From Nitrosomonadales bacterium (GTDB lineage: Bacteria; Pseudomonadota; Gammaproteobacteria; Burkholderiales; SG8-39), in NCBI GenBank assembly GCA_005240145.1, contig SBAS01000057.1:1-42891 (forward strand): a stretch of DNA of 42,891 nucleotides. Reading direction: 5' to 3'. The notes under the pieces were generated by a model. The model was not told the origin of the DNA. It did no database searches and saw only the letters and a list, made by a program, of their open reading frames with translations. How positions within the stretch are numbered: position 1 is the first letter of the stretch; each line of letters begins with the position of its first letter. Made by a program: the position numbers and the translations under genes. Shown here piece after piece: positions 9,722-14,753 of this stretch.

Positions 9722-9850
9722 GCTCTCCCCTTGCTCTGGCAGCCAGCGTCCCCGCAGGCTGCGATGCTGCAAACGGACGAAGCAGGGCGAAGCGCGCTAG
9801 CGCCAACAATTGCCGCCCGCAATCGTCCAACAGCGGCCTCAGACTGCGAG

Positions 9851-9868
9851 ACCGGCCCGTGGGCCGGT
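9851..9868 (-). promoter_or_regulatory. Hairpin between B12 riboswitch and btuB (candidate expression platform)
   Basis: A perfect inverted repeat with 8-base arms (ACCGGCCC / GGGCCGGT) and a 2-base centre lies in the btuB leader, just downstream of the riboswitch aptamer. No run of T residues follows on the minus strand, so a standard Rho-independent terminator is not supported. It may be part of the expression platform, or the switch may act on translation or through Rho. The rest of 9722-9884 shows only the btuB ribosome-binding site. Confidence 0.45.
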
Positions 9869-9884
9869 ATACGGGCTGGCGCGT

Positions 9885-10055
9885 TCCTGGGCACGAGAAC
9901 CGCTCTGACTCGTCCCAGTCTCTGCATCGCCTTCCCACGGAATATGGTTCCGCAGTGGCACTCGATGCAGCGTTACCGCGCTTACCGTTGCGGGGGCAGC
10001 ACAGGTCGTCTAGGCCAGATAGCCTTCGATCCCTGTTTCCCGTTTAACCCGCGCC
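9885..10055 (-). ncRNA. Cobalamin riboswitch (AdoCbl type)
   Basis: Read on the minus strand, this leader shows the conserved cobalamin aptamer blocks in order: AAACGGGAAACAGG near the 5' end, then CTGCCCCCGCAACGGTA (core, about 9983-9999), GCCACTG (9953-9959), GGGAAGGC (9929-9936), and a B12-box-like GAGTCAGAGC near 9902-9911. It lies 160-330 bases upstream of btuB, where binding of a cobalamin normally shuts off expression. It should regulate btuB, cobQ, btuM and the DUF71 gene, and possibly the LPS genes that follow without a gap. Ends are approximate by about ten bases. Confidence 0.95.
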
Positions 10056-10159
10056 GCAGAAACACGGCGAGGGCACCAACGTGGCAGAGCGAGCATATCA
10101 CCGCCGTATTGGGCGGCGCAGCATGATCAGGTATCACTTGCAGAAGCAGCCCTTATTTC

Positions 10160-10744: not shown

Positions 10745-10950
10745 GCTTCTTTGTCCCCTGCTGTGTTCGACAGGGCCCATATTTTCCGAACCGATAGCTT
10801 CCCCAGGTTGCGGCCTCTAGTGCCACTGTTGTGATCGTCCCTCGCCTTCGGGCCCGCCGGACGAACCTGATGTGGCCGGTACGCGACCACCCTGATTAAG
10901 CAGGGTTCGGAGGCCGGGCCCGCCGGCACGAGCGGGGGACTCCCATATTT
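10745..10950 (+). ncRNA. ssrS: 6S RNA (SsrS)
   Basis: The roughly 200-base gap after zapA folds as a long imperfect hairpin: GTCCCC (10753-10758) pairs with GGGGAC (10935-10940), and further in GGGCCC (about 10773-10778) pairs with GGGCCC near 10917-10922, with asymmetric loops and a large central bulge region between. This closing-stem design, the length and the zapA neighbourhood are those of 6S RNA, which mimics an open promoter and sequesters sigma-70 RNA polymerase. Ends are estimated. Confidence 0.8.
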
Positions 10951-10966
10951 TTCTCCTATTTCCACT

Positions 10967-11428
10967 ATGACTGCCTGGCTCATGAAATCCGAGCCCGACG
11001 AGTGCTCGATCGACGACGCGCTCGCCGCGCCCAAGCGCATCACCCCCTGGACCGGGGTGCGCAACTACCAGGCGCGCAACTACATGCGCGACACGATGCG
11101 CGTCGGTGACGGCGTTCTCTTCTACCATTCGAGTTGCCCGGAGCCCGGCATTGCAGGGCTTGCCGAGGTCGCTTCAGCGCCCTACTTCGACCCGTCGCAG
11201 TTCGACAGGAAGAGTCCTTATTACGACCCGAAATCCGATCGCGCCGCGCCGCGCTGGAGTTGCGTCGAGGTGCGCGCGTTGAAGAAAACCCGCTTGATGC
11301 CCCTCGCCGAGATGCACGGCCAGGCGGCCCTCAAGGCAATGTGGGCCCTGCGTCCGGGCAACCGGCTCTCGATCACGCCGGTCACCGCAGCCGAATGGAA
11401 ATTCATCTGCGCCAGGCTGGGGCGATGA
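10967..11428 (+). CDS. EVE domain protein (PUA-like fold)
   Basis: The 153-residue protein is a complete single EVE domain: [17 protein letters not shown], then [15 protein letters not shown] and [23 protein letters not shown], and [19 protein letters not shown] domains share the YTH/PUA fold and bind modified bases in nucleic acids; the bacterial stand-alone form (relative of thymocyte nuclear protein 1) has no firmly settled role. The gene lies between 6S RNA and hemE and overlaps hemE by four bases (ATGA). Confidence 0.93.
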
Positions 11429-12468
11429 ACGACATCCTGCTGCGGGCGCTGGCGCGCCAACCCACCGAGTACACGCCGGTTTGGCTGATGCGGCAGGCGG
11501 GGCGCTATCTCCCCGAGTACAACGCGACCCGGGCGAAGGCGGGAAGCTTCCTCAAGCTGGCCAAAACACCGGCGCTGGCCGCCGAGGTGGCGCTGCAGCC
11601 GCTGGCGCGCTTCCCGCTGGATGCGGCGATCCTCTTTTCCGACATCCTCACGATTCCCGATGCCATGGGCCTGGGACTTTACTTCGCCGAGGGCGAAGGC
11701 CCGCGCTTCGAGCGGCCACTGCGCGATGAAGCGGCGATCGCGCGCCTAGCCGCGCCCGATCCCAGCGCCGAACTGCGCTACGTCCTCGATGCCGTGCGAG
11801 AGACCCGCAGCGCCCTCGGCGGCAGGGTCCCCCTCATCGGTTTTTCCGGCAGTCCATACACGCTCGCCTGCTACATGATCCAGGGCTCGGGCAGTGACGA
11901 CTGGCGGCGGGTGAAGGAAATGCTCTACGCCCGCCCCGACCTGTTGCACCGCATTCTCGAAGTCAACGCGCGGGCCGTTGCGGATTACCTGAACGCGCAA
12001 GTCGAAGCCGGCGCGCAGGTGGTGATGCTGTTCGATACCTGGGGCGGGAGTCTCACCGCGGCGCAATACGAGGAGTTTTCGCTCTCCTACATGCGCAAGG
12101 TGATATCCCAGGTGCACAAGGCGCCGCGCATCGTTTTCACCAAAGGCGGCGGAGGTTGGCTGGAAAGCATCGCCGCGAGCGGCTGTGAGGCGGTCGGACT
12201 TGATTGGAACGTCGACCCAGGCGAAGCGCGCCGCAGAATCGGCGGGAAGGTCGCGTTGCAAGGCAATCTCGATCCCGCCGTGCTCGGCGCACCGCCGGCG
12301 CGCGTGCGCGAACAGGTGCGCAACGTACTCGATGCCTTCGGCGCAGCGCCCGGGCATGTTTTCAATCTCGGGCACGGCATCACCCCATTTGCACGCATTG
12401 ACGCGGTCGAAGCCCTCGTAGACGAAGTACGCACTTACAGCACTCGGCTCAGGGCCTGTCCGGACTGA
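11425..12468 (+). CDS. hemE: Uroporphyrinogen decarboxylase HemE
   Basis: The 347-residue enzyme decarboxylates the four acetate side chains of uroporphyrinogen III to give coproporphyrinogen III in haem synthesis. Both family signatures are present: [13 protein letters not shown] near residues 20-32 and [18 protein letters not shown] near 137-154. The catalytic-pocket segment [12 protein letters not shown] is intact. ATG 11425 overlaps the EVE gene stop (ATGA); the upstream in-frame extension is EVE coding sequence in another frame. The stop is followed at once by a DnaA-box match. Confidence 0.97.
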
Positions 12469-12469
12469 C

Positions 12470-12654
12470 TTATGCACACTGGGACGGCAGAGGGAGAAAT
12501 CACGTCGTTGCGGGGCGTAGACGAACCTCGACATTTGCAACACCTTGAACCTAGAGCGAATATGCGCTTCGGAAGGCGCGCCAAAGCGCGACCCGTTACG
12601 CGCCTGTGGAGAAGTTACGGAAGCGTGGCGGTTTTATTCACAGATTTATCCACA
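12470..12654. promoter_or_regulatory. DnaA-box cluster in the hemE–priA gap
   Basis: The 266-base gap holds three exact matches to TTATNCACA on the plus strand: TTATGCACA (12470-12478), TTATTCACA (12634-12642) and TTATCCACA (12646-12654). TGTGGAGAA (12605-12613) is a one-mismatch box on the other strand. The last two are 3 bases apart and are followed by an AT-rich stretch (about 12665-12680, AATTCAAATTTTT). In such GC-rich DNA this density is unlikely by chance. It may be a DnaA-regulated priA promoter, a DnaA-titration site, or part of a replication origin. Confidence 0.7.
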
Positions 12655-12712
12655 AGAGCATTCGGAATTCAAATTTTTCCTTGTGGCGCAAGGAGAACGG
12701 CAACATTTGCAA
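12531..12712 (+). repeat. Direct repeat ACATTTGCAA, two copies 172 bases apart
   Basis: The 10-mer ACATTTGCAA occurs at 12531-12540 and again at 12703-12712, bracketing the paired DnaA boxes in the hemE–priA gap. Its AT-rich composition stands out. Function is unknown; it may bind an accessory protein or be coincidental. Confidence 0.5.
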
Positions 12713-12734
12713 TGCGAAAGCTCACCCTTTGCGC

Positions 12735-14753
12735 ATGAGGGTTTTGCGTATTGCACTCGATGTACCGGTCGCCAAAATATTCGAGTACCTGATCGACGGC
12801 GCAACGCCGGTTGAGCCAGGCGATCGCGTCGAGGTTCCTTTTGGTGCGCGCCCACGCGTCGGAGTTGTCGTTGAAATTGCCGCAGCGAGTTCGGTCGCGG
12901 CCTCAAAGCTGAAACGGGTCGAGCGCGTGCTGGACGGGGCACCCAGGCTGCCGGCCGAGTGGCTTGAGCAGATGCGCTTCCTGTCTTCCTACTATCAGCG
13001 GCCGTTCGGCGAAACCGTGGCAGGCGCGCTTCCGGCACGCCTGCGTTCCCTCAAGCCGCTCCCCAAGCGCGCGAAATCGGCTGCGGACAACGCGAGCGAG
13101 AAGGCGCAGCCCCCTGTGGGCGGGCACGCACCCAATCCCGCGCAGGCCCGCGCAATCGAAAGCATCAGCGTCGCGCTCGGGGCTTTCCGCCCGTTCCTGC
13201 TGCACGGCATCACGGGCAGCGGCAAGACCGAGGTGTACCTGCGGGTGATCGCGCAGGTGCTCGCCCGGGGCTTGCAAGCGCTGGTGCTGGTTCCGGAGAT
13301 CGGCCTGACGCCGCAACTGGAGGCACGGTTCCGCCGGGCGTTCCCCAGCTCTCACATTGCCGTGCTGCACAGCGCGCTTGAGGACACCGCACGCACGCAC
13401 GCATGGCTCGACGCCGCGCGCGGTGATGCGTCGATCATCCTCGGCACGCGGCTGGCGGTCCTCACGCCCCTGCCGCGGCTCGGCATTGTGGTCGTGGACG
13501 AAGAGCACGATGCCTCCTTCAAACAGCAGGAGGGCCTGCGCTACTCCGGTCGCGATGCGGCGGTGCTGCGCGCCAAGCTGGCCGGGTGCCCGGTCGTGCT
13601 CGGCTCGGCGACACCGTCGCTGGAAACCTGGTTCAACGGCGGCGCGGGCCGCTACACCTTGCTCACCCTGCCCGAACGGGCCGTGCCGGGCGCACGGCTG
13701 CCCACGGTCAGGACCGTGGACTTGCGCCTCGAGAGCGCCGAGAACGGCCTCGCCAAACAGGTGCTGGAAGCCATAAGCGCGCGCCTCGCGCGCGGCGAGC
13801 AAAGCCTCGTCTTCATCAACCGCCGCGGCTATGCGCCGGTCCTCGCCTGCGAGTCCTGCGGCTGGGCCGCGGGCTGCACGCGCTGCAGCGCGCGCCTGGT
13901 GCTGCACGCGAGCGCCGAGCGCGGGCGCGAGCCCGGAGCCGGTAGCCTGCGCTGCCATCACTGCGGCGCGCGGGAAAACGTCCCGCGCGCCTGCCCGACC
14001 TGCGGCAATGTGGACCTGCGGCCGCTGGGCCGCGGCACGCAACGCGTCGAGGAAACGCTGGCAGTGCTGTTTCCGGCGGCACGCATTCTGCGCATCGACC
14101 GCGACACCGCTCGCAAACGCGCCGCGCTCGCGCGCACCCTCGATGGCATCGGTCGCGGCGAGGGGGACATCCTGGTCGGCACGCAGCTGCTCGCCAAGGG
14201 ACACGACTTCCCGAACCTGACGCTGGTTTGCGTGCTCAATGCCGACAACGCGCTGCTCTCGACCGACTACCGCTCCGCGGAACGGCTTTTTGCCCTGCTG
14301 GCCCAGGTAGGCGGGCGCGCGGGCCGCCGCGAACAGCCCGGCGAGGTGCTGGTGCAGACGCGCTACCCGGCGCACCCGATGTTCCGGGCGCTGATGCGGC
14401 ACGATTACGCCGGTTTCGCCGCATCGCAGCTCGCGGAGCGCGAAGGCGCTGGATTTCCGCCTTTCGTCCACGAAGCCGCGCTGCGCGCCGAAGCGAAGAA
14501 AGTCGACTCGGCGATGATGTTCCTGCGCGCTGCGGCGAGGCTCCTGGAGGTGCCGGCAAGCGTGCAGATCTACGATCCGGTGCCGCACCTGATCACCCGG
14601 CGCGCTGGCGTTGAACGTGCGCAACTGCTGCTGCAGTCGCATTCACGCCCGGCGCTGCAGGAGTTCCTGCGCCTGTGGTCGGCCGCCCTGCCTGCTTCCT
14701 CTTCGAGCGGTGTGCGCTGGCATCTCGACGTGGATCCGATCGAGTTTGACTAA
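12735..14753 (+). CDS. priA: Primosomal replication-restart helicase PriA
   Basis: The 672-residue PriA reloads the replisome at stalled forks. It begins with the DNA-binding domain (MRVLRIALDVPVAKIFEYLIDGA). The helicase core has Walker A GITGSGKTEVYL at about 158-169, DEEHD near 255, and QQEGLRYSGRDAA. Eight zinc-binding cysteines appear as CESC, CTRC, CHHC and CPTC between residues about 371 and 430. Between the second and third pairs is a short insertion (SAERGREPGAGS). ATG 12735 is chosen because MRVLRIALDVP is the family N-terminus; an in-frame ATG at 12606 adds 43 residues that overlap the DnaA boxes and lack family character. Confidence 0.96.
   Translation: MRVLRIALDVPVAKIFEYLIDGATPVEPGDRVEVPFGARPRVGVVVEIAAASSVAASKLKRVERVLDGAPRLPAEWLEQMRFLSSYYQRPFGETVAGALPARLRSLKPLPKRAKSAADNASEKAQPPVGGHAPNPAQARAIESISVALGAFRPFLLHGITGSGKTEVYLRVIAQVLARGLQALVLVPEIGLTPQLEARFRRAFPSSHIAVLHSALEDTARTHAWLDAARGDASIILGTRLAVLTPLPRLGIVVVDEEHDASFKQQEGLRYSGRDAAVLRAKLAGCPVVLGSATPSLETWFNGGAGRYTLLTLPERAVPGARLPTVRTVDLRLESAENGLAKQVLEAISARLARGEQSLVFINRRGYAPVLACESCGWAAGCTRCSARLVLHASAERGREPGAGSLRCHHCGARENVPRACPTCGNVDLRPLGRGTQRVEETLAVLFPAARILRIDRDTARKRAALARTLDGIGRGEGDILVGTQLLAKGHDFPNLTLVCVLNADNALLSTDYRSAERLFALLAQVGGRAGRREQPGEVLVQTRYPAHPMFRALMRHDYAGFAASQLAEREGAGFPPFVHEAALRAEAKKVDSAMMFLRAAARLLEVPASVQIYDPVPHLITRRAGVERAQLLLQSHSRPALQEFLRLWSAALPASSSSGVRWHLDVDPIEFD

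Follow-up and report, generated by a model that had tools for sequence, protein, structure and literature searches.

A conserved DnaA-box and IHF-site element between hemE and priA in Burkholderiales: a candidate non-origin regulatory site of the datA/DARS type

Two kinds of DnaA-binding site are told apart in Escherichia coli by their architecture: datA, in which same-direction DnaA boxes face each other across an IHF bend, and DARS, which contains a head-to-head pair of boxes. The minimal datA measures 183 bp, with three essential same-direction boxes and one IHF site (PMC5742627), and the distance to that IHF site matters (PMC10380432); at DARS2, shifting the IHF site alters activity (PMC4245941). 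The opposed boxes I and II of E. coli DARS make a head-to-head ADP–DnaA pair (PMC8682772), and datA, DARS1 and DARS2 all titrate DnaA as well (PMC12371093). The first kind (datA, the site of DnaA–ATP hydrolysis, DDAH) turns the initiator DnaA off, and the second (the DnaA-reactivating sequences) turns it on. Reviews already mention both DARS-like sequences in many proteobacteria and the conservation of DARS2 in E. coli-proximal beta- or gammaproteobacteria, so elements of this kind are known. Accounts of datA itself concern E. coli and closely related bacteria. A literature search retrieved no description of such an element at hemE–priA, nor of paired copies or of a datA spacing joined to a DARS core.

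For comparison, the distances within datA, DARS1, DARS2 and oriC were read from the MG1655 genome. With box 2 of datA placed at 0, its IHF site lies at +65 and its box 3 at +162 (65 + 97 bp), and inclusion of the weak box at −12 gives a span of 183 bp, equal to the published minimal size. The cores of DARS1 and DARS2 have boxes 14 and 12 bp apart in the orientation + − −, and the IHF site of DARS2 is 87 bp from box III. The box–IHF–box layout was absent from E. coli oriC.

The window, by which the whole stretch of 42,891 nucleotides is meant, is contig C58 of a 3.24-Mb genome in 130 contigs that is 96% complete. Its local gene order is zapA, 6S RNA (10752–10942, + strand), a gene for an EVE-domain protein, hemE, priA and argS, several of these names having been assigned by reading translations. 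The hemE gene for uroporphyrinogen decarboxylase (11425–12468, + strand) begins with MNDILL, its homologues matching from residues 1–2, and is separated by a 266-bp gap from the ATG of priA (12735–14753, + strand), the replication-restart helicase, which begins with MRVLRIALDV and matches PriA_3primeBD, PriA_C and DEAD. Homologues of PriA mostly align from about this start, and since the homology begins at ~12735, a location of the boxes within the PriA coding sequence was ruled out. Farther to the left, a cobalamin riboswitch (9845–10095, − strand) lies upstream of genes for a TonB-dependent, BtuB-like receptor and a cobyric acid synthase-like protein.

The gap contains an intergenic element of 185 bp (12470–12654). 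Box 1, TTATGCACA (12470–12478), starts 2 bp past the hemE stop codon and is followed after 68 bp by an IHF-like site, CAACACCTTGAAC (12538–12550), with two mismatches to YAANNNNTTGATW; 96 bp farther on comes box 2, TTATTCACA (12634–12642), and 12 bp past it box 3, TTATCCACA (12646–12654), all of these on the + strand. An inverted box with one mismatch to the consensus, TTCTCCACA, lies at 12605–12613 on the − strand. A sequence-only reading of this DNA had described three exact boxes with one near-match on the opposite strand, and an AT-rich stretch beside the closest pair; both descriptions held, the stretch lying at 12663–12690 between the close pair and priA. The IHF-like site and its fixed spacing are additions to that picture.

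A chance cluster was ruled out by shuffled windows, by the rarity of the box genome-wide and by an order-wide pattern scan (see below). The element holds three exact copies of TTATNCACA, all on the + strand, against 0.2 expected for the window, which has four in total; shuffled windows had a mean of 0.20 and a maximum of one. Only 23 exact boxes were found in the whole 3.24-Mb genome, and 13 of them lie no more than ~20 bp from contig ends, where all seven that were read belong to one shared repeat sequence. When these 13 are set aside, three of the ~10 remaining exact sites fall within 185 bp. The contig-end repeat itself is ~98 bp long, starts with GTACACTTATCCACAAACCAGAC and carries the exact box near its outer end. 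Judged by the position of the box, it is present at 13 contig ends, of which seven were read (L011–L016 and L018), and it resembles an insertion-sequence terminus.

The element shares with datA the arrangement of three same-direction boxes around a single IHF site, its distances of 68 + 96 bp corresponding to 65 + 97 bp in datA and its total length of 185 bp to 183 bp. The IHF site is thus at the matching distance, although its two mismatches count against a datA-like reading. The two also differ in that the tandem 12-bp pair of datA (low-affinity box 7 and box 2) is on the opposite IHF arm from the pair seen here, in the setting (tRNA-Gly/queG in datA, hemE–priA here), and in the DARS-type core that many relatives of the window element have. 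A box-7 equivalent at −12 of box 1 was not enriched among 92 aligned elements, and the element was consequently filed as datA-like rather than as a member of datA.

The likeness to DARS1 and DARS2 resides in the right arm, where boxes 2 and 3 stand 12 bp apart in positions equivalent to those of boxes III and II. In half of the 92 aligned elements this arm is a DARS core read backwards, completed by an inverted box at 14 bp in a spacing identical to that of E. coli DARS1 and DARS2. The resemblance raises the alternative that the window copy is itself a DARS-type site, promoting ADP release from DnaA and raising DnaA–ATP before initiation, and the use of IHF by DARS2 would fit this. On the other hand, the box I position of the window copy (12660–12668, − strand) carries no box, with six mismatches, so the three-box head-to-head core of E. 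coli is missing, and in this genome the full core sits instead in the copy at xseA (described below). The element also differs from DARS in having a strong outlying box on the far side of the IHF site and in an IHF distance of 96–98 bp from box III, that of DARS2 being one turn shorter. A DARS-type role for the window copy is thus considered unlikely.

The layout was followed through 92 aligned copies, which were chosen by a box-spacing filter, so that only the position of the IHF motif, the box at 14 bp and the two spacing modes count as independent observations. It reads box 1 (whose presence was a selection criterion), 65–70 or 76–80 bp, IHF motif, 96–98 bp, box 2, 12 bp, box 3. The best IHF motif fell 96–98 bp before box 2, a single 3-bp bin, in 76 of the 92, and scrambled or reverse-complement motifs reached 10–20 of 92 in that bin. 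None of the close matches among the 92 had a distance of 71–75 bp between box 1 and the IHF motif. The two spacing modes differ by a whole helical turn, as expected if the two arms have to come together over a bend. With positions counted from box 3, DnaA boxes were clearly enriched at only three places: at −12 in the same direction, which was partly a selection criterion; at +14, inverted, in 50% of the 92; and at −41, inverted, in ~10%, the last being the box found at 12605 in the window.

The sequence-only reading had made its case depend in part on whether the boxes recur in sister genomes, and they proved to be highly conserved. When 60 relatives were searched with PriA, the element was found in 44 of 51 readable priA upstream regions, its carriers ranging from members of the same genus and family to many other families within the order; among the 51, the upstream region in one genome (G050) had no element and that in another (G040) had one with degenerate IHF spacing. 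Same-genus relatives have the IHF motif at the equivalent place, mostly with 0–1 mismatch, and several of them have TTATCCACA or TTGTCCACA at the position of the inverted 12605 box. An order-wide scan with a strict pattern matched 114 of 300 genomes and with the reversed pattern none of the 300; at class level, 22 of 274 genomes matched, and the reversed pattern had no match in the 274. Multiple copies or part-copies, in tandem or close together and mostly upstream of priA, were seen at L137 (G045), L041/L194 (G043, with two tandem copies of the element), L216 (G327) and G114:C27:28974-29531, and three genomes (G106, G149, G163) each have two elements ~27–28 kb apart.

GTDB was then scanned with one geometric pattern, its gaps bracketing both the datA and the hemE–priA layouts, and 80 of the matches listed were examined. 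At least ~15 of these 80 are enterobacterial datA beside queG and/or tRNA-Gly (64–66/95–98), many are hemE–priA elements of named Burkholderiales (Duganella, Janthinobacterium, Collimonas, Undibacterium, Noviherbaspirillum, Aquitalea and Pseudogulbenkiania), and the remaining examined loci among the matches listed come mainly from non-enteric gammaproteobacteria; a handful of unrelated loci among these listed matches is probably due to chance. The shared layout of the element and datA/DARS is not proof of shared descent. In Oleiagrimonas and Rhodanobacter (L248, L296), the box–IHF–box layout immediately precedes argS, which in the window comes next after priA.

A second copy is present in the same genome, in the gap between exbB and xseA (G000:C110:98904-98938; L010 4904-4938). 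It has a weak box 1, an IHF motif at +69 with two mismatches, box III at +165, box II at +177 and an inverted box I at +191, and thus a complete DARS-type core; the xseA-adjacent layout is repeated with the same spacing in most relatives examined. A further box cluster, with two exact and two one-mismatch boxes, lies a short way upstream of the replicative helicase gene dnaB (G000:C19:6229-6334, L009). In other genomes, elements stand beside polA, recB, a uvrD-like gene, argS, rdgC, hrpA (in the hrpA–fadL gap), comM and mtnA, the neighbours at several of these distant loci having been named by reading translations. Such placement beside unlinked genes is as expected for a site that acts in its own right.

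The usual linkage to priA could nevertheless reflect transcription control, a third option of the sequence-only reading, in which DnaA, together with IHF, would couple replication restart to initiation. Most genomes have the element a short distance upstream of priA, and it is still there in two (L182 and L201) that have no hemE match within the ~1.5 kb examined; further copies lie upstream of genes of DNA metabolism (xseA, polA, recB, uvrD-like). Control of priA is nonetheless quite unlikely, given that box 3 can stand anywhere from ~10 bp to more than 100 bp from the priA start while the internal spacing stays fixed, and that copies also occur at the unrelated mtnA, comM and hrpA–fadL. As for hemE, its candidacy as the partner gene was not supported by L182 and L201.

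The explanation favored here, with somewhat better than even confidence, is that the element is a betaproteobacterial non-origin DnaA–IHF regulatory site of the datA/DARS type. DnaA would bind box 1 to one side of the IHF site, and boxes 2 and 3 to the opposite side; a sharp bend made by IHF would let the DnaA of both arms meet on one and the same helix face, and the contact between the arms would alter the nucleotide state of DnaA. Genes for IhfB and Hda are present in the genome, both scoring above curated cut-offs. By the E. coli rules, the window copy is most likely datA-like because all its strong boxes have the same direction and DARS box I is absent, and it would then, like E. coli datA, promote the hydrolysis of DnaA-bound ATP after initiation. 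The copy at exbB–xseA, with its complete head-to-head core, appears DARS-like by the same rules and is the likelier of the two to recharge DnaA, which would amount to a division of labour between the copies. For the family as a whole, reactivation has as much support as inactivation, since half of the relatives have the DARS core as right arm.

A more far-reaching proposal is that the widespread beta- and gammaproteobacterial form, with a distal box, an IHF hinge and a DARS core, is a composite that joins the layouts of datA and DARS in a single piece of DNA, and that it might serve as a DnaA switch which IHF can set either way; this is tentative and rather unlikely. If true, the enterobacterial datA and DARS would be its separated halves, and a parallel split would have taken place in this genus, with box I gone from the priA copy (datA-like) and the full core kept in the xseA copy (DARS-like).

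The suggestion of the sequence-only reading that the cluster is a DnaA titration site came close to the datA/DARS-type explanation, and it was in the passive form of titration that it fell short, since the IHF-spaced layout suggests a switch. A passive site would bind DnaA without affecting its bound nucleotide. This would account for the clustering of strong boxes and agree with the additional titration by E. coli datA, DARS1 and DARS2, and also with the location: of the 15 genomes that have both genes on a shared contig or a closed chromosome, 13 have priA ~25–235 kb from dnaA, so that the element is usually near the origin, as datA is, and would be duplicated early. Passive titration, however, does not call for an IHF site at a set position or for spacing by helical turns, and is judged improbable. 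Another group of boxes, with five exact copies within 550 bp, was seen ~50 kb from dnaA in one relative (G043:C1:5138163-5138711).

The alphaproteobacterial origin, as in Caulobacter, has DnaA boxes beside hemE, and the sequence-only reading had accordingly offered oriC as one option. Boxes, an IHF site, a neighbouring AT-rich stretch and the nearby hemE would agree with a chromosomal replication origin of this kind, as would the genes of the window, which point mostly leftward to the left of ~9.8 kb and mostly rightward to the right of it. The GC-skew test named in that reading went against it. Skew within the window alone was uninformative, and the window's own genome is fragmented, with no closed genome in the genus, so the evidence comes from relatives. 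In one genome of the same family (G029), a 160-kb stretch around the element has negative skew to its left and to its right, and the change from negative to positive comes at dnaA on the dnaA contig; in another (G018), the skew is likewise negative before and after the element. In an order-level genome (G055), the cumulative skew falls past the element to a minimum at dnaA, 230 kb on, and in G040, whose element is the degenerate copy, the minimum lies at ~1.6–1.8 Mb, ~1.5 Mb from the element at 0.14 Mb, with dnaA at 1.28 Mb. The dnaA–dnaN gap has its own recurring DnaA boxes in the order and is the likelier origin.

The element also differs from the Caulobacter-type origin in following priA rather than hemE, and in occurring elsewhere, at unlinked genes. 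The parallel with the hemE origin is therefore probably coincidental, and the probability that the element is oriC is very low. Origin prediction from clusters of DnaA boxes can pick such elements, which calls for caution; on chromosome 1 of Burkholderia cenocepacia, dispersed boxes and an IHF site have been reported, and the exact origin was left unsettled by the authors (PMC4948915). With a conserved, paired, non-coding candidate at hemE–priA and exbB–xseA across Burkholderiales, the question of how DnaA–ATP is adjusted outside the enterics becomes directly testable.
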